Origin: a virus
Length of the DNA stretch: 21,663 nt
Strand: one strand, 5' to 3'
Virus record (IMG/VR): IMGVR_UViG_3300007960_000240
Coordinates: 1 to 21,663 of that record
A program made the translations under genes and the position numbers. The notes under the pieces are model-generated. The model did not search any database and was not told where the DNA came from. It saw only the letters and a program-made list of their open reading frames with translations. Below, piece by piece: positions 11,601 to 17,498 of this stretch. Every line of letters begins with the position of its first letter. Position 1 is the stretch's first letter.

Positions 11601-11794
11601 GCATAGATCCAGCTGGAGTAGGCGGCGACGGCTGCATTGCCGTTGAACGGCTGTGGTTTCCCGTCGTGCCTCTTGTCGCCCTGCGACATGCTGGCGCGAA
11701 TGTAGGTCTGTGCGGTGGCCGCCTTGGCAACCAGGTCGCCTGCCTGCGGCACAGGTGCGGACAGCCAGCGGCGAATGGTGTGGAGTAGGGGCAT
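8672..11794 (-). CDS. Portal-MuF fusion protein
   Basis: A 1040-residue multidomain protein. Residues about 1-440 are the portal: SWIYAAATINAQAVAANPLR (61-80), NPYTNGFDLAVLRVVWQELT, EVLHFKRPNPRDLFYGMGKL, and FGVPVSMLKANDPNLASAEA near 335-354 are standard portal blocks. Residues 460-580 are an Ala/Pro/Gln-rich linker containing LNGAQIQSLVDMATAVQAGE (505-524), a helix pair common at phage portal C-termini. Residues 584-615 carry SLDDCVARGIAKLLQEGYDQ, and 649-725 carry RGMTEVGLARARDLQNRV plus a WxAWMGWGGDEGW block. Residues 760-1040 are MuF-like, ending with PDACEFCSAAAKAYGK and LHPNCRCAMLPV. The portal is the dodecameric DNA gate, and MuF-type proteins act in head morphogenesis. TGATG overlaps the terminase stop. 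Most phages encode these two functions separately. Confidence 0.9.
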   Translation of the reverse strand: MPLLHTIRRWLSAPVPQAGDLVAKAATAQTYIRASMSQGDKRHDGKPQPFNGNAAVAAYSSWIYAAATINAQAVAANPLRMYVRSRGTGAKLWNTRAASRKVKRYLAGDSLQQPSQHVMRKAAELGADFEEVTDSHPLMQLLARSNPYTNGFDLAVLRVVWQELTGNAYMHIVTNEALGVPSELWPMPPQWTRIVPDEQNYIAAFQYGRSSESSVRLEPSEVLHFKRPNPRDLFYGMGKLEAAWGAAEANAALHEMDLAFFANHARPDYALVVKGNASDEQLDGLEQQIQAKLRGNRKTGHFLVTTADIDLKPMQFPSKDLEGREEIVEEIAAVFGVPVSMLKANDPNLASAEAGFSSWREMTVLPLCRMDEEVLNQRLLPLFGLEDDAVLAYDNPVPANRVQDLTERQAAVANGWMTPNEAREQQGLEPIVDDPHADMLHVNGQPLGGTPMAMPYGAGVPLPADTAPAASPTPEPDTAPQADDATVEQPADAAAQADAVADTALNGAQIQSLVDMATAVQAGELPKEAARAIARASFPTVAAEQLDAIFDPITPMAPAAPAQADAQQAAAPAPVRKPEPQPGESLDDCVARGIAKLLQEGYDQEQATAIAISMCGGAKALEDIDTVPPQQVADNARRALEVREAKPASQRGMTEVGLARARDLQNRVALSEETIRRMVAYFERHESDKQGESWDEQGPGWQAWMGWGGDEGWDWAARKVAEFDREREAAKSCGCSHVKSHREWWLAHDQEALAKADTGALVNDELLERWLSGTTSVLRTQVQEVVRAIKAGGGDTTELVNQVTRLLRSAKWNRDLTEALQPYLARALEGGAALGMDTLQRVAGTPAVAQLGWSSQQLEDYVARSSTTLAQRAAASVNGYTEARVRDLLGDGLAKGETVGELADRVQAWAEGADDAAGDMTRRRATTIARTEAARAASTANQDAWRATGLVTGKRWELAPDACEFCSAAAKAYGKAGVPLDQPFYSQGETLAVRGGGSMNLDFEDVQGPPLHPNCRCAMLPVLADDFEDIAAEAERRIRG

Positions 11795-12993
11795 CAGATC
11801 ACCTTGAATACCAGCGGGCGTGCCTGCCTCTTGGCTGCCAGCGCCAGCGCCAGGGCGCAGACGCCATCGTCGTGGCCCGTACTTGCCTCGTATACCACGC
11901 GCCCACCCGTATATCGGAACGCGAACGAATCCAGTTCAGCGCGGAGCCAGCCGTCAGGGTAGCGCAGCTCCCGTGCCTGCAGCGCCACGGCGAGCCCTTC
12001 CATGAGCTGCTGCTTCGAGTGGCTGGTGAACTTCCAGCCCTCGGCACGCCTGCACAGGCGGGCCAGGTCTTCCACAATGGGGTCACCCACGCCCGTGCTG
12101 TCGATCATGGCTGGCACGCTGCCAATGAGCGCAGCCACACGGCTGCGCGTGGCACCCCAGTCGCTCTGCCACCGCTCGAGCACGCACACATGGCCGCTGG
12201 CGTCCAGGCCGCACACCACCGTCCAGTCGTGACTCTTGGCAAGGTCTACACCGTAGGCCACAGCTGGCTGCGTTGACTGCACGCCCACGCAGTCCCGTAT
12301 GGCCTCCGCGCCGAACGGGTTGCTGCCATCGTCGCTGGCCTCGGCCAGGTACAGCTCACGGAACACATGCTCCGGCAGCTGCCGCTGCGCGTCACGCACC
12401 TCCTCGTCAGCCAATATGCCACCGCTCACAGCATCGGCTGCGGTGAGCTTGTGGTAGGCCATGTTGGGCGTGCCAGCCTCGGCCATGCGCGCCAACCTGT
12501 AGACCCAGTTTTTCCGCCCCTTGACATTGCCGATGATGCGGCACGGGCCACGGGTTGCGGTGAGCGTGCTGCGCACCGCGTTCCATGCCTCTTCCGGGCA
12601 GCGGGTTGCCTCGTCAATCACAGCGGCGCGCACATCGTCACCGTACAGGCTGTCAGGGTTGTCGGCGCTCTTGAACCACAGGCTGGCACCGTTGACCAGC
12701 TTGATGCACAATGAGCTCTCATTGGCCTGCCAGGTGCGCTGCTGCGCGTCGGCCTGGCGCAGCATGGCCACCATGCGCATGTATGCCACCTGCTTGGCCA
12801 CAGGGTAGGTGGGCGCCACCCACCAGTAGCTGCCAGCTCCACCGTTCCAGGCTTGGGCCAGCAGCCATAGCAGGCACCCTGCGGTCTTCCCGCTCTTGGT
12901 GCTGGCCTCGATGACCACGAAACGGGCTGGGTCACAGATGGCCGCGTGCTGCTTGGGGTAGAGCGCTGGCAGCGCAGGCGGCTGCACCAGCAT
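11794..12993 (-). CDS. terL: Terminase large subunit
   Basis: A 399-residue DNA packaging motor. The ATPase has Walker A, EASTKSGKT (29-37), and Walker B, AAVIDEAT (123-130, D127 and E128). The nuclease domain carries the acidic residues expected of the RNase H fold: GVDLAKSHDWTVV (D250), AMIDSTGVGDP (D298) and GHDDGVCALALA (D375/D376). It starts at ATG 3 bp after the small terminase-like gene and shares TGATG with the portal gene. Length and motif order are normal for TerL. The protein docks on the portal and cuts concatemeric DNA. Confidence 0.93.
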   Translation of the reverse strand: MLVQPPALPALYPKQHAAICDPARFVVIEASTKSGKTAGCLLWLLAQAWNGGAGSYWWVAPTYPVAKQVAYMRMVAMLRQADAQQRTWQANESSLCIKLVNGASLWFKSADNPDSLYGDDVRAAVIDEATRCPEEAWNAVRSTLTATRGPCRIIGNVKGRKNWVYRLARMAEAGTPNMAYHKLTAADAVSGGILADEEVRDAQRQLPEHVFRELYLAEASDDGSNPFGAEAIRDCVGVQSTQPAVAYGVDLAKSHDWTVVCGLDASGHVCVLERWQSDWGATRSRVAALIGSVPAMIDSTGVGDPIVEDLARLCRRAEGWKFTSHSKQQLMEGLAVALQARELRYPDGWLRAELDSFAFRYTGGRVVYEASTGHDDGVCALALALAAKRQARPLVFKVI

Positions 12994-12996
12994 GGG

Positions 12997-13473
12997 TCAG
13001 CCTCCGGCGCCGCCGCCTGCAACCAGGGTGATAGGTGCCAGCTGCACCAGCTCGGTGGGCTGGCCACCATCAAGGCGCTCGACCTTGTCAGCCACCTGCA
13101 GCGCCGCCAGGTTGTCGCGCTGCATGGCCACCAGCACCTCGATGGCCCGCAGCCTCTCGCGGTCATTGCGGGCGGTGGCCACCACATGGGTGGCCACGCG
13201 CGGCAGGTCGCGCAGCAGCTCGGGTGCCAAGTCCCAGCCGCCATGTATGGCACGGGCCAGCAGGCGCAGGCCAGCCCGCTCATGGGTGGGCGTCACCACC
13301 TGCTGGGCCGCCTGGGGCGCCTGGGCCGCCCAGGGCGCCGCCTGGGCGCCTGGGGCCGCCTGGGGCGCCTGGGGCGCCTGGGCCGCCTGTGGCGCCGCCT
13401 GGCCGCCCTGGCGGCCCTTGGGCGCCCGCTGCTTGCGGCGCCCGCCCTGGGTGCCCTGCTTGCCCTGCTTCAT
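12997..13473 (-). CDS. Terminase small subunit candidate with low-complexity N-terminus
   Basis: A 158-residue protein immediately upstream of terL. The first 25 residues are basic (MKQGKQGTQGGRRKQRAPKG). Residues 25-60 are an Ala/Gln/Pro low-complexity stretch built of AQAPQA-type units. Residues 65-140 are a helical domain (ERAGLRLLARAIHGGWDLAP, then IEVLVAMQRDNLAALQVADK, VERLDGG) that recurs in phage proteins next to large terminases. The C-terminus is Gly/Ala-rich. Position and basic character fit a DNA-recognising small terminase, but no HTH is obvious. The start is chosen at the ATG overlapping the folE stop (ATGA) with GGAGGAG upstream. Confidence 0.6.
   Translation of the reverse strand: MKQGKQGTQGGRRKQRAPKGRQGGQAAPQAAQAPQAPQAAPGAQAAPWAAQAPQAAQQVVTPTHERAGLRLLARAIHGGWDLAPELLRDLPRVATHVVATARNDRERLRAIEVLVAMQRDNLAALQVADKVERLDGGQPTELVQLAPITLVAGGGAGG
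13300..13400 (-). repeat. GC-rich degenerate 9-bp repeat in the small-terminase gene
   Basis: A run of degenerate 9-mers of the type CTGGGGCGC, CTGGGCCGC and CTGGGCGCC (plus-strand reading). It encodes the Ala/Gln/Pro low-complexity segment. All three frames on this strand stay open across it because the repeat period is a multiple of three. It is a likely spot for copy-number variation. Confidence 0.7.
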
Positions 13474-14390
13474 GCCCACTCCTCCAGCCTGCGGCGCATG
13501 CTGTCATCACCAGCCCAATCACCGCGCAGGCACACCGTCACCATCTCGGCGTCAGGCTGCCGCACCCCACGGCAACCCATGCAGCTGTGGTGTGCCCTGA
13601 TGGCCACCCCAACGGCCAGGGCGCCAATGGCGCCCCCAAGGGTATCGGCTATTTCGCGGGTCAGCCGCTCCTGCAGCTGCGGCCTGTGCGCCAGCACCTC
13701 CACCAGGCGCGGCACCTTGGACAGGCCCACCACCCTGTCGCTGGGCAGGTAGGCCACGGTGGCCGTGCCAACGAACGGCAGCAGGTGGTGCTCACACATG
13801 CTGGTGAACCTGATGCCGCGCACATACACAGCCTGTCCGAACGGCTCGGTGAAGGTGGTGCCCAGCACGCTGGCAGGGTCAACGCCCAGCCCGTTGGTCA
13901 TCTCGCGCATGGCCTTGACCACACGCCTGGGCGTGTCGCGCAGCCCCTCGCGCGTGGGGTCTTCACCCATGCCCTCGAGCAGCCTGACCACCGCATCCTC
14001 CGGCCCGTTGCCACGCTCCCACGGGAACTGCAGCCAGGCGCTGACCTGCTCGGCTTGCGGCGCCATGCTGGCTGGGCTGTGCCTCTTGCGATACATGGCA
14101 TCGCAGCGCAGGCCAGCCTCGTGGTACGGCTGCATGGTGCGCCCGCTGTCCACCAGGTCATCAACCACCAGCACGCGCTGGCCGTCGGCCTCGAGTGCCA
14201 GCAGCTGGTTCAGGTCTGCCATGGGGAACGCCATCTCGCAGTCCAGCCAGCTTGACACCAGCATGGCCACAGGCCAGCCGCCCATGGGAATGCCGTACAC
14301 GCAGCCGATGTCCGCATGCGACCAGCGCTCGGCAATGGCCGCCGCCTGCTCACGCATTTCCCCCCACTCAACTCGCAGCGGCTCGGTCAT
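13470..14390 (-). CDS. folE: Gpt-like phosphoribosyltransferase fused to GTP cyclohydrolase I
   Basis: A 306-residue two-domain protein. Residues 1-125 are a type I phosphoribosyltransferase: YGIPMGGWPVAMLVSS (32-47) and the PRPP-binding signature VLVVDDLVDSGRT (73-85). The segment SAWLQFPWERG (117-127) echoes the WIEQPWDMG end of E. coli Gpt (xanthine-guanine phosphoribosyltransferase). Residues 129-306 are FolE: TSMCEHHLLPF (C199, H202 zinc; H201), VVGLSKVPRL, HRPQLQERLT, and HHSCMGCRGVR (C270 as third zinc ligand, H268). FolE makes 7,8-dihydroneopterin triphosphate from GTP, the first step to preQ0. The Gpt part may supply guanine nucleotides or recycle guanine released by DpdA. It follows queE with an ATGA overlap and SD GGAGGG. 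Zinc and catalytic residues look intact. Confidence 0.9.
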   Translation of the reverse strand: MTEPLRVEWGEMREQAAAIAERWSHADIGCVYGIPMGGWPVAMLVSSWLDCEMAFPMADLNQLLALEADGQRVLVVDDLVDSGRTMQPYHEAGLRCDAMYRKRHSPASMAPQAEQVSAWLQFPWERGNGPEDAVVRLLEGMGEDPTREGLRDTPRRVVKAMREMTNGLGVDPASVLGTTFTEPFGQAVYVRGIRFTSMCEHHLLPFVGTATVAYLPSDRVVGLSKVPRLVEVLAHRPQLQERLTREIADTLGGAIGALAVGVAIRAHHSCMGCRGVRQPDAEMVTVCLRGDWAGDDSMRRRLEEWA

Positions 14391-15034
14391 CGCACCCTCC
14401 AGCTCTTGTGCTGCTGAACCGACAGGCGCCAGTCAGGGTGGCGCCGCACCAGCTCGAGGCACCACTCCATGGTGCGCCTGTCCACCGCCAGGCCGTCGTG
14501 CGCTGGGCTGATGAGCTGGTGGTCTGCCACCACCACGGTGCGAGGTATCGCCTGCCCGTAGCCGCGCACATACTTGACCTCATTCGCGCGGCGCTGCTTG
14601 ATGGCATGCTCGGCCACCTTGGGGCTCACCGTCACCCAGTCAAGCTCGAGGTGGTCAAGGTTGATGCTGCCGTTCGTCTCAATGGCCACGCGCATGCCAG
14701 CGTCGTGCAGCGCGGCACACAGCCTGGCGTCGACCTGCAGCCCAGGCTCACCGCCAGTCAGCACCACCCACGGGCGCCAGCCAGCTGGCGGCTCACCGCC
14801 GATGCCGTGCCGCAGCTCGTCATGCAGCAGCTGCAGCACCTGCTCAAGCTCGAGCGCGCGCCCGCTCTCAAACTCCGTGTCGCAGTCAAAGCCTCCGGGC
14901 GACTTGTCGCCAGGCTCCACCCTGCAACGCATGTTGCACCCAGTCAGGCGCAGGAACAGGCTCATCTCGCCAGCCCTCATGCCCTCGCCCTGCGGGCTGT
15001 AGAAGCACTCGTTCACCCTGTATGTGTCAGCCAT
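14387..15034 (-). CDS. queE: 7-carboxy-7-deazaguanine synthase QueE
   Basis: A 215-residue radical SAM enzyme that converts 6-carboxytetrahydropterin into 7-carboxy-7-deazaguanine. Residues 11-18 (FYSPQGEG) and 25-40 (SLFLRLTGCNMRCRVE) are the family entry. Three cysteines are C33, C37 and C51, the last in GGFDCDTEF, so spacing is C-x3-C-x13-C rather than the common C-x3-C-x2-C. Other family blocks are TGGEP (93-97), ETNGS (119-123), VSPK (137-139 region) and the C-terminal QQHK (207-210). The ATG overlaps queD by 22 bp, with GGAGG about 10 bases upstream. It acts between QueD and QueC in one operon. Confidence 0.92.
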   Translation of the reverse strand: MADTYRVNECFYSPQGEGMRAGEMSLFLRLTGCNMRCRVEPGDKSPGGFDCDTEFESGRALELEQVLQLLHDELRHGIGGEPPAGWRPWVVLTGGEPGLQVDARLCAALHDAGMRVAIETNGSINLDHLELDWVTVSPKVAEHAIKQRRANEVKYVRGYGQAIPRTVVVADHQLISPAHDGLAVDRRTMEWCLELVRRHPDWRLSVQQHKSWRVR

Positions 15035-15426
15035 TGCGCACAGTCCTCCAGCTGGGCCACCACGGTGGCGCTGTCCGTCTCCTGCAGCTCGAGCGCCACC
15101 ACCTGCGGCAGCCGCTCATGGCAGCGCTGCAGCAGCAGCGCGGCCAGGCACTCCGCGCTCGTCGGGCACGGCAGCACCACACACTCCGGCACGGCGCACG
15201 CCACCGCGTCCTGGCGCCACGCCAGCGTGCGGTGGTCGAGCTCCTCGAACACGGGCGCGATGGCGGCGTCAATCTCCGCGAACAGCACGCCCACGGCTGC
15301 GCTGCCAGGCTGCACCTGCAGGTGAACCTCCACACCGTATCGGTGCCCATGCAGCCGCGCACACTTGTCCTGCAGCATGTGGTTGCGGTGGGCAGCGTAG
15401 AACCGGAACCGACGCTTGATGATCAC
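15013..15426 (-). CDS. queD: 6-carboxytetrahydropterin synthase QueD
   Basis: A 137-residue member of the PTPS family that turns dihydroneopterin triphosphate into 6-carboxytetrahydropterin. Zinc ligands are H13 (AAHRN), H26 and H28 (LHGHRYG). The catalytic Cys is C22 (DKCARLHGH), LDH with D64 and H65 forms the rest of the relay, and E116 in LQETDSATV binds the pterin. It starts at GTG, overlapping the QueC stop (GTGA), with SD GGAGG about 6 bases upstream. The length is normal for QueD (about 120-140). Confidence 0.92.
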   Translation of the reverse strand: MIIKRRFRFYAAHRNHMLQDKCARLHGHRYGVEVHLQVQPGSAAVGVLFAEIDAAIAPVFEELDHRTLAWRQDAVACAVPECVVLPCPTSAECLAALLLQRCHERLPQVVALELQETDSATVVAQLEDCAQWLTHTG

Positions 15427-16088
15427 GCTGCACCTCCGCTGGCGTATTCGGTGTGGTCAGGCACGCCCGCCAGCTCGAACGCCTCTCGGCGCTCGACACA
15501 GGTGCCGCACCGCCCGCAATGTATGGCGCCACCCTCGTAGCAGCTCCATGACTTGTGCATGGGTGCGCCCAGCAGGTCGCCGCGCACCACAATGTCGTGC
15601 TTCGTCATCAGCACGAACGGCGCCAGCAGCTCGAACTGGCTGGCGCCCCAGTTCCCCATGCGCACGGCCTGCTGCATGACCTGCATCCACATGGGCCTGC
15701 AGTCAGGGTAGATGGCGTGGTCGCCAGCGTGCGCCGCGATTGACACAGCGTCCATGTCATGGCTGATCGCCAGGGCCGACGCCAGGCACACGAAGGTGGC
15801 GTTGCGGCTGGGCACCACCGTCTGCTTCATGCTCTCATGCGCGTAGTGCCCATGCGGCACGCTGCCGTGCCCAGTCAGCGCGCTGCGCGTGACTGCGCAC
15901 AGGTCAACCCTGACCAGCGTGTGCGGCACACCGCAGGCCGCTGCCAGCTCCTGCGCCCAGTCCAGCTCACGCCTGTGACGCTGACCGTAGTCAAAGCTGA
16001 TGGCACGCACCTCATCACCCTGCTCAAGGTGGTGCGTCAACAGCACCGTGCTGTCCAGGCCGCCGCTCAAAGACACGACTACACGCAT
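15423..16088 (-). CDS. queC: 7-cyano-7-deazaguanine synthase QueC
   Basis: A 221-residue ATP-dependent enzyme that makes preQ0 from 7-carboxy-7-deazaguanine and ammonia, through an amide intermediate. The PP-loop SLSGGLDST lies at residues 6-14. HESMKQTVVPSRNATFV (84-100), GDHAIYPDCRP (122-132) and LLAPFVLMTKHDIV (154-167) are QueC blocks. The zinc site is C183, C191, C194 and C197 (SWSCYEGGAIHCGRCGTC). The start ATG at 16088 has SD GGAGG and overlaps the dpdA end. No glutamine amidotransferase domain is attached, so this is plain QueC, not the Gat-QueC that leads to archaeosine-type bases. Confidence 0.94.
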   Translation of the reverse strand: MRVVVSLSGGLDSTVLLTHHLEQGDEVRAISFDYGQRHRRELDWAQELAAACGVPHTLVRVDLCAVTRSALTGHGSVPHGHYAHESMKQTVVPSRNATFVCLASALAISHDMDAVSIAAHAGDHAIYPDCRPMWMQVMQQAVRMGNWGASQFELLAPFVLMTKHDIVVRGDLLGAPMHKSWSCYEGGAIHCGRCGTCVERREAFELAGVPDHTEYASGGAA

Positions 16089-16924
16089 GCATCCTCCGGT
16101 TCCGCAGGCAGCCTGCCGCGCAGCCTGCTGTACTCGTTCCACACCATGTTGAGGTCTACGCTGCCGCTCAAGTACATGCGCGTGCCCAGGTTGGCGCGCA
16201 CCTGCGCCGACACGGCCACATGCGAGGCGACGGTGATGCGGGCCGCCAGGCTGCGCCCGCCTCGCCAGCTGCCGTCCTTGCGCAGGTCTGCAATGTCGTA
16301 GCCCAGCCTGGCGATGCCTGACGCTATGGCTGGGCTGATGCGGCCCACCAGGTCGCTGCGCTGGAACGCCTGCAGCACGCCACCACCAATGTGCAGCTCA
16401 CACCTGCCATAGCGCAGGGCGCCCGTGTAGTTCGAGCTATCGCAGCTGTATGGCCGGAGCGCCTTGAGTACCGACAGCCTGTTGACGCCCAGCAGGTGGA
16501 CGGCCTGCTTGGCCAGGTGGTCGCGCATGCGCATGAGGTACGGCACGGGCGTCTGCCCCTTGCGCACCAGTCCGCCAATGCACACCACGGGCGAGGTGCT
16601 GGCGTACTCGGCCAGCGCGTCGGGGCTGTCTCCCCGCGTCCACACGGGCACGGGCTGCAGCCCCTGCGCGCGCATCTCCAGGTAGTTCTGCCTGGTGCGC
16701 ACAGGGTCGCCAATGACATCGAGCGCCACATACATGTGCGGGCGCACGGGCAGCGCCTTGAGGAAAGCGATGTAGTCCTGCAGCACAATGGGCCGCCCTG
16801 ACTGCCAGGCTGTAAAGGCGCCGCTGTCCACCATGAGCTCTACGGCGCTGCCCATGCGCGCGATGCCATCGACCGCCTTGGCGTTCAGGTACGGGTATGC
16901 GATCAGCAGGCGCAGCCTACTCAA
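16079..16924 (-). CDS. dpdA: DNA 7-deazaguanine transglycosylase DpdA
   Basis: A 281-residue TGT-superfamily enzyme predicted to replace guanine in DNA with preQ0. Motifs include MVDSGAFTAW (31-40, D33 as TGT-type Asp), YVALDVIGDP (65-74), VCIGGLV (114-120), HLLGV (143-147) and YSCDSSNY (159-166, D162 as the likely nucleophile). This order, in place of tRNA-TGT features, is the phage DpdA pattern. No CxCxxC zinc site or RNA-binding domain is visible, unlike tRNA TGT (about 370 residues). I choose a TTG start at 16924 because the frame before it is the antisense-shifted shadow of the ParB-like gene, GGAG lies 6 bases upstream, and it overlaps the ParB stop by 8 bp. Neighbours are all deazaguanine genes. 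Confidence 0.88.
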   Translation of the reverse strand: MSRLRLLIAYPYLNAKAVDGIARMGSAVELMVDSGAFTAWQSGRPIVLQDYIAFLKALPVRPHMYVALDVIGDPVRTRQNYLEMRAQGLQPVPVWTRGDSPDALAEYASTSPVVCIGGLVRKGQTPVPYLMRMRDHLAKQAVHLLGVNRLSVLKALRPYSCDSSNYTGALRYGRCELHIGGGVLQAFQRSDLVGRISPAIASGIARLGYDIADLRKDGSWRGGRSLAARITVASHVAVSAQVRANLGTRMYLSGSVDLNMVWNEYSRLRGRLPAEPEDACV

Positions 16925-17498
16925 CCACGGCTCCGGCGAACGGCGCCACGGCTGCCCGCACGGCATCGGCCACGGCCTCGCGGTCTGCCTCGTCACAGCG
17001 CACCGTGATGGTGGCTGGTGCAGCGGCTGGCTCCAGCTGTGCCTCGAGCCGCTCCAGCTCGGCCTCCGGCAGCTCCCATGTGCCAATGACCGCCTGCAGC
17101 TCACCCTCGGTGAAGTACGGCGCCAGGTCAACCTCCTGCGCAAGCTTGCCCAGGACGGCTGCGTCCCACTCGGCCAGCTCTGCCGTTCGGTTGTCGGCCA
17201 CCGCATATGCCACGGCCTCGGCGTCAGCCAGGCTGGTGCGCACCGCGTCAATGTGCGTCCAGCCCAGGGCACGCGCCGCCTGCAGCGTGGCGTTGCCTGC
17301 CAGCACCACGCCATCGGCGCTGACCACAATGGGCCGCTGCTGGCCGAATCGCTCCAGGCTTGCCTGCACCGCCTCGAGGTTGCGCGGCCCGTGCAGCCTG
17401 GCGTTGCGCGGGTCTAGCTGCAGCTCGCCTGTGGCCAGGCGTTCAATGCGGCTCCCTGACCCTCGCGGGCTGTTGTCTGCAGGTACGGTCTTCGCCAT
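16917..17498 (-). CDS. ParB-like nuclease-domain protein, DpdA partner candidate
   Basis: A 193-residue protein with the ParB/Srx N-terminal domain at about 20-140: LDPRNARLHGPRNLEAVQAS (28-47), FGQQRPIVVSADGVVLAGNA (51-70, GN in place of the usual GH), LGWTHIDAVRTSL, and VADNRTAELAEWDAAVLGKL (100-119). The ADNR-x-EL-WD block is the one found where ParB-like domains precede phage DNA methylases, not in chromosome-partition ParB. Residues 162-193 form a short C-terminal unit. It is first in the modification operon, behind a promoter, with SD GGAGG 4 bases upstream, and its end overlaps dpdA by 8 bp. No HTH or Walker ATPase partner is present, so partitioning is unlikely. I infer a role in DNA recognition for DpdA. 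Confidence 0.8.
   Translation of the reverse strand: MAKTVPADNSPRGSGSRIERLATGELQLDPRNARLHGPRNLEAVQASLERFGQQRPIVVSADGVVLAGNATLQAARALGWTHIDAVRTSLADAEAVAYAVADNRTAELAEWDAAVLGKLAQEVDLAPYFTEGELQAVIGTWELPEAELERLEAQLEPAAAPATITVRCDEADREAVADAVRAAVAPFAGAVVE

Follow-up and report, generated by a model that had tools for sequence, protein, structure and literature searches.

Gene content and architecture of the locus

The window analyzed here is a phage record of 21,663 bases (IMGVR_UViG_3300007960_000240, positions 1–21,663), whose minus strand codes, in this order, for a ParB-like protein, DpdA, QueC, QueD, QueE, a phosphoribosyltransferase–FolE fusion, one further ORF and the large terminase subunit (all coordinates given for the window are on this strand). 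The ParB-like protein is a stand-alone product of 193 aa (16917..17498), with its best family matches to phrog_620 (ParB-like, E 4e-30) and to the N-terminal part of phrog_498 (ParB-DNA methyltransferase, E 7e-26). It is followed by a DpdA of the phage DNA-guanine transglycosylase type (281 aa; 16079..16924; phrog_887, E 8e-31) and by QueC (15423..16142; PF06508, E 3e-60), QueD (15013..15426; PTPS, E 1.5e-20; phrog_2389) and QueE (14387..15034; phrog_2076, E 9e-30). The FolE gene (13470..14390) encodes a phosphoribosyltransferase domain at the N-terminus of its product (PF00156 before PF01227), and the terminase large subunit (11794..12993) is recognized by Terminase_6N/6C.

The ParB and dpdA genes overlap by 8 bp (TTGAGTAG, 16917..16924): dpdA starts with a TTG at 16924, within the end of the ParB gene, and a GGAG lies 6 nt upstream (16931–16934), while a GGAGG precedes the ATG of ParB. 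An alternative in-frame ATG, examined in a near-identical contig (L002), would extend the overlap to about 50 bp, and the TTG fits the starts of homologous DpdAs better. The same contig retains the junction, with 1412 of 1420 nucleotides of the ParB–DpdA region identical. A re-reading of the sequence confirmed the coordinates, the motif and the 8-bp overlap given in a preliminary description of the locus.

The predicted structure of DpdA (AlphaFold2, pLDDT 93, built from 34 sequences) recovers TGT structures in all 50 listed rows of a structure comparison, the best with Z 14.0 over 228 residues at 3.2 Å; Foldseek alone ranks generic TIM barrels first. While the NCBIfam equivalog for the bacterial type of DpdA reaches only 16.6 bits against a cut-off of 200, the window displays both of the features by which a phage DpdA was judged here, namely a TGT-like fold and preQ0 genes (QueC, D, E and FolE) close by.

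A methylase-type ParB domain without a methylase

Standard ParB models detect the window protein below their thresholds: Pfam ParB_N scores 17.8 bits, under its 26.3-bit gathering cut-off, and TIGR00180 (partition ParB) 16.9 bits against a curated 58.45, and the sole PADLOC match is to a Type II methyltransferase model (E 2e-14). The AlphaFold2 model (pLDDT 85, built from 45 sequences) aligns over residues 17–148 to known structures, including 7bnr_A, a ParB with a CTP analogue (Z 16.4, 128 residues, 3.5 Å), and the sulfiredoxin 6ky4 (Z 11.8), and a profile search (A5) retrieves Noc/ParB chains (E 1e-13). The model comprises a ParB N-domain plus helices only, and the Pfam scan found no HTH family. 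Together with the structure alignment, it delimits a ParB/Srx-fold core at residues 17–142 (17073..17450) and a C-terminal tail at residues 143–193 (16920..17072), the part that tracks the partner enzyme among relatives.

Within this core the ADNRTAELAEWD block (residues 101–112; 17163..17198) conserves D102 and N103, which align with the E-N of ParB. At the site of the GxxR P-motif the protein reads AGNAT (GNAT at residues 68–71; 17286..17297), with Thr71 in the position of the arginine. The predicted structure thus places the protein in the ParB/Srx superfamily by fold alone and not by NTPase character, because the arginine of the P-motif is missing; an Arg-to-Ala change at GxxR is described as abolishing nucleotide binding in the tested ParB-fold proteins (PMC12704722). 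In a set of 217 dereplicated ParBs, from which the remaining 45 unclassified ones were left out, this arginine is present in 43 of 79 DpdA-paired proteins and in 0 of 93 from other named partner classes, a contrast that is partly one of sampling, as the non-DpdA ParBs were fetched with Thr-bearing queries.

The domain had been described as being of the type that usually precedes DNA methylases, here standing alone. This characterization holds: in 45 of its 80 nearest IMG/VR relatives the ORF also carries a methylase motif, scored as (D/S/N)PP(Y/F/W), another 31 stand alone and the remaining 4 lack a usable ORF, whereas the 193-aa window ORF contains no methylase domain according to Pfam and PHROGs. 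The known phage ParB-DNA methyltransferase fusions (phrog_498; PMC12704722) share with it the type of ParB N-domain, ADNRTAELAEWD and the P-motif threonine, but where they continue into a methylase the window has a separate DpdA. That ADNRTAELAEWD is invariant among methylase-type ParBs is in part an effect of ascertainment, since TAELAEWD served as a search pattern for relatives.

The ParB–DpdA pair is recurrent and clade-restricted

DpdA queries against IMG/VR yielded 158 loci, which fall into 113 clusters at 70% identity. Combining two ParB profiles and counting as adjacent any same-strand ParB no more than 300 bp away from DpdA, we found ParB in 103 of the 158 loci and adjacent in 100; at the level of clusters it is adjacent in 71 of 113 (62 upstream, 9 downstream). 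In the cluster representatives 73 of 77 ParB matches lie next to DpdA, as against 7.6 expected under uniform placement, and a control with reversed ORFs gave 0 ParB matches in 15,831. These figures supersede those from the first profile (80/158 loci; 58/113 clusters; 59/64 adjacent versus 5.8), which missed 21 loci recovered by the N-domain profile; 7 of the ParB-less loci end too near DpdA for the presence of ParB to be judged. Among 55 dereplicated junctions with ParB upstream, with start codons chosen by rule, 36 overlap and 41 are separated by at most 30 bp. Hence ParB is a recurrent and tightly coupled neighbor of DpdA, in keeping with the partnership proposed from the single locus, which the lack of any recurrent neighborhood would have spoken against. 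A fusion of ParB with DpdA did not turn up in any of the 158 loci.

In actinobacterial genomes ParB precedes DpdA at 5 of 6 loci, and it does so immediately in Gordonia phage Sour, Hedgerow and Finch. In other phages further genes come between the two: one small gene in Bipper, a second DpdA-family ORF and a small gene in Nicole72, and a QueF-like gene in Rinkes. CAjan, VpKK5 and EC151 have no ParB near dpdA by annotation or by the first ParB profile.

These differences follow the DpdA lineages. In a quick tree of 112 DpdAs, whose deep branches are weakly supported, ParB accompanies DpdA in 21 of 21 loci of the window's clade and 38 of 39 of the other large clade (actinophage types), but in 0 of 38 of the clade containing CAjan, where no ParB match was obtained even at E<=10; 10 further representatives fall outside the three clades, and the rows for the window, Sour, Rinkes and CAjan themselves are uncounted. 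The ParB-free DpdAs do not have a longer N-terminus than the paired ones. Published analyses report modification of about 32% of G in CAjan DNA and dPreQ0 at about 28% of G in that of Rosebush (PMC6884629), and Hedgerow, a member of the species Rosebushvirus rosebush, has the ParB–DpdA pair. Since both DNAs are modified, DpdAs with and without ParB are functional. The trees suggest that DpdAs recruited ParB independently more than once; a single origin of the DpdA-paired ParBs is not rejected (AU p 0.64), and we do not adopt the multiple-origin scenario.

One core beside many enzymes, with a tail that follows the partner

A downstream gene could be called for 30 of the 31 stand-alone ParBs among the nearest relatives. 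By Pfam and PHROGs these genes comprise Mom (6), TET-associated glycosyltransferases (5), ABC (5), DpdA-like proteins (4), C5-methylases (3), QueC-like proteins (2) and a terminase (1). Queries restricted to the N-domain gave 62 dereplicated ParBs, of which 19 are methylase-fused, while the others are followed by TET/JBP-like proteins (8; labeled from sub-threshold Pfam scores of 1e-5 to 6e-4), a second ParB-type protein (6), C5-methylases (3), DpdA (3), ABC (3), ParB (3), PP-loop proteins (2), Mom (1) or a glycosyltransferase (1), with 9 downstream genes unclassified and 4 ParBs having none. The notion of a parallel use of the same module is thereby upheld, as the core that pairs with DpdA also pairs with methylases, Mom, TET/JBP and glycosyltransferases. 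The N-domain of the Sour ParB, whose partner is DpdA, is 72.7% identical to that of CaiB, with a TET/JBP partner and an amino acid:DNA transferase next to it, and 72.8% to that of Shatter, paired with ABC. A counter-example is Arthrobacter phage Brent, in which ParB is flanked by hypothetical genes.

For the 125 stand-alone ParBs whose partner could be classified, the C-terminal tails were aligned with one another by short-word BLAST, with pairs binned by N-domain identity. Similar tails occur in 277 of 1955 same-partner pairs and in 0 of 3387 different-partner pairs; at 55–70% N-domain identity the respective figures are 66 of 106 and 0 of 356, and without binning 365 of 3270 and 0 of 4480. 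When partner labels were permuted for pairs at 35–55% identity, none of 500 shuffles reached the observed difference, and the best match across partners has E 0.004 over 11 residues. The tails of DpdA-paired ParBs are themselves diverse (254 of 3081 pairs similar), and that of the window protein has no counterpart at E<=1e-3, the nearest being those of L098 (DpdA; E 0.006) and L271 (ABC; E 0.008). Tails with a CPxC motif, too short to score, are by eye common to ParBs with Mom, C5-methylase and one PP-loop partner; short zinc-ribbon-like examples stand beside Mom and C5-methylases in L013, L026, L049, L064, L074 and L270.

Relationship to known systems

The actinophage ParB–DpdA–QueCDE–FolE loci (Gordonia Sour, Mycobacterium Rosebush/Hedgerow, Rhodococcus Finch) resemble the window in gene order and overlap, but the window ParB is closer to the methylase-type ParBs and its tail is without a close match. 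With the canonical CTPases ParB, Noc and KorB it has the N-domain fold in common, but not the GxxR arginine, and no HTH is seen. A ParBc domain likewise adjoins a phage DNA base-modifying enzyme of different chemistry, the cytosine carboxymethyltransferase CmoX, and its role there is given as unknown (PMC12783734). One paper lists ParB and queuosine genes together in a DNA-modification category (PMC6965579), and another places ParB within a thymidine hypermodification operon (PMC11955845). Thus, as far as these sources go, the pairing of ParB with modification genes is already partly in print (PMC12704722, PMC12783734, PMC6392294, PMC6965579, PMC11955845). We met neither the clade split nor the tail rule in our searches of open-licence literature, outside of which most subscription papers lie, and earlier statements of either may exist.

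Predicted role of the ParB-like protein

From its position and recurrence we regard the ParB-like protein as a likely partner of DpdA. Comparison of sequences supports a set in which a ParB core appears to be paired with modifying enzymes, in some cases fused to them and in others encoded by a gene of its own that overlaps theirs, the evidence being the coupling, the recurrence, the restriction to clades, the swapping of partners and the accompanying change of the tail. The reading that we favor, and hold to be somewhat better than an even bet, is that the window protein is an accessory subunit of DpdA and a member of this set, which would be widespread among phages and in which one ParB core is combined with many chemically unrelated modifying enzymes. 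The overlap of the two genes would then set ParB and DpdA at a fixed ratio, the tail would dock on the modifying enzyme, and the conserved core might contact DNA, or some other element common to the DNA metabolism of phages, and so keep the enzyme on phage DNA.

More tentatively, we propose a generalization that we rate a little short of even: DNA modification in phages might be organized in a plug-in fashion, with a core and an exchangeable partner-specific tail serving methylases, Mom, TET/JBP, glycosyltransferases, PP-loop proteins and DpdA, and DpdAs themselves might form two classes, one dependent on ParB and the other self-sufficient. If true, a single accessory part would explain how phages exchange their DNA-modification chemistries and why only some DpdAs are accompanied by a helper, and the gene following such a ParB would offer a route to unknown modification enzymes. 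The varied enzyme pairings of the core suggest a shared accessory part for the camouflage of phage DNA.

The preliminary description had instead seen the domain as supplying target recognition or DNA loading to the base-exchange enzyme. Its view of a recurrent neighbor and shared module stands, but the functional part is no more than putative, given the lack of an HTH in the Pfam scan, Thr71 and the similar modification of ParB-free CAjan. A sequence-reading ParB that directs DpdA to particular guanines is an alternative that we consider unlikely, if the strongest of those weighed here. HaeIII is reported to cut Rosebush but not CAjan DNA despite the same modification (PMC6884629), as expected if the two types of DpdA differ in their sites, and the tail does vary with the partner. 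However, such a difference in sites may reside in DpdA itself, and neither the Pfam scan nor the structure comparison revealed an HTH or other DNA-binding family in ParB. Moreover, it is the core that is conserved, the reverse of what a specificity subunit would show, and the fraction of G that is modified is similar for the ParB-free DpdAs (PMC6884629). Because CAjan and Rosebush are modified to a similar extent, ParB is dispensable for the site selection of DpdA in general.

Distinctly less probable is that the protein is the phage counterpart of DpdB, a ParB-superfamily ATPase driving preQ0 insertion by DpdA. In print, DpdB figures as an ATPase that is ParB-like and aids DpdA (PMC12839542), and its gene, like the window ParB, can overlap dpdA: in L256, one of two actinobacterial dpd clusters that we fetched, dpdA lies between two genes, one of them overlapping it by 4 bp, which match PADLOC DpdB (E 1e-145 and 1e-152) as well as DndB of Pfam. 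Further, ORF1 of mycobacteriophage CRB2 was proposed in 2019 as a possible dpdB homologue (PMC6392294). Against this, four phage ParBs have no PADLOC DpdB match, the ParB profile retrieves no DpdB at E<=10, and hhalign returns a probability of 0.1%; DpdB is a DndB-family protein of about 380 aa with DGQQRS, as opposed to 193 aa and AGNAT in the window protein, and no sequence relation between them was found. Orthology with DpdB is therefore rejected at the sequence level by PADLOC, profile search and hhalign. Phages and bacteria appear to have placed different ParB-superfamily proteins beside DpdA, and for CRB2 ORF1 the comparison would support an analogous position but not homology within the DpdB family. 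The same actinobacterial cluster (L256:4068-8461) has DpdC upstream and a DpdB paralogue on either side of DpdA.

Slightly less probable still is a clamp, gated by CTP or another NTP, that would bring DpdA onto DNA and allow it to slide. The fold match to ParB with CTP analogues (Z 16.4), the retention of D102/N103 and the arginine in 43 of 79 DpdA-paired ParBs are in keeping with it. Yet a classic CTP-driven clamp is unlikely for the window protein because the P-motif arginine is absent, the non-DpdA-paired ParBs (fetched with T-bearing queries) lack it throughout, and an HTH of the parS type was not seen.

Membership of ParB in the packaging module, belonging with the terminase while the dpdA and que genes merely lie between them, we think improbable. 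A terminase does follow just downstream in the window, Sour, Nicole72, Rinkes and several cluster B phages, but in Finch, where ParB–DpdA–QueCDE is found at 122 kb, none of the 12 features in the 6.3 kb inspected is a terminase, and the ParB–Mom pair of Dropshot is located in the replication region. Among 29 loci extending 5 kb to either side, TerL was detected in 7 (seven queries, of low sensitivity), and ParB occurs on either side of DpdA. Finally, a nuclease nicking DNA for base exchange is very improbable, as the 'ParB-like nuclease' annotations rest on homology, even if some members of the ParB/Srx superfamily are reported to be active nucleases (work cited in PMC12839542).

Variant loci

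Several loci depart from the simple ParB–DpdA pair. Tandem DpdA ORFs follow ParB in L003:3359-6867 (three) and in Microbacterium phage Nicole72 (two; L086:670-2751), and two consecutive ParB genes lie ahead of DpdA in L100:4817-5993. In L007:3366-5056 a long, odd-tailed ParB overlaps a divergent DpdA-like gene, followed by QueC and more que genes; a shrunken methylase was considered for its tail and set aside, the methylase profile giving a mere hint (E 0.15 over a linker). ChrisnMich gp2 (L261:785-1753), annotated as a queuine tRNA-ribosyltransferase, is weakly Tet_JBP and does not match the DpdA profile. In Mycobacterium phage Rinkes, gp1 (L089:1-1302) is a ParB fused to DUF6610 (PF20314, E 2e-33); its reading as a ParB–DpdA fusion was dropped, with an hhalign probability of 1.4% over 39 columns and an empty viral scan. 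The adjacent Rinkes gp2, annotated as a GTP cyclohydrolase, matches the QueF-II preQ1 synthase with E 4e-22, below the cut-off.
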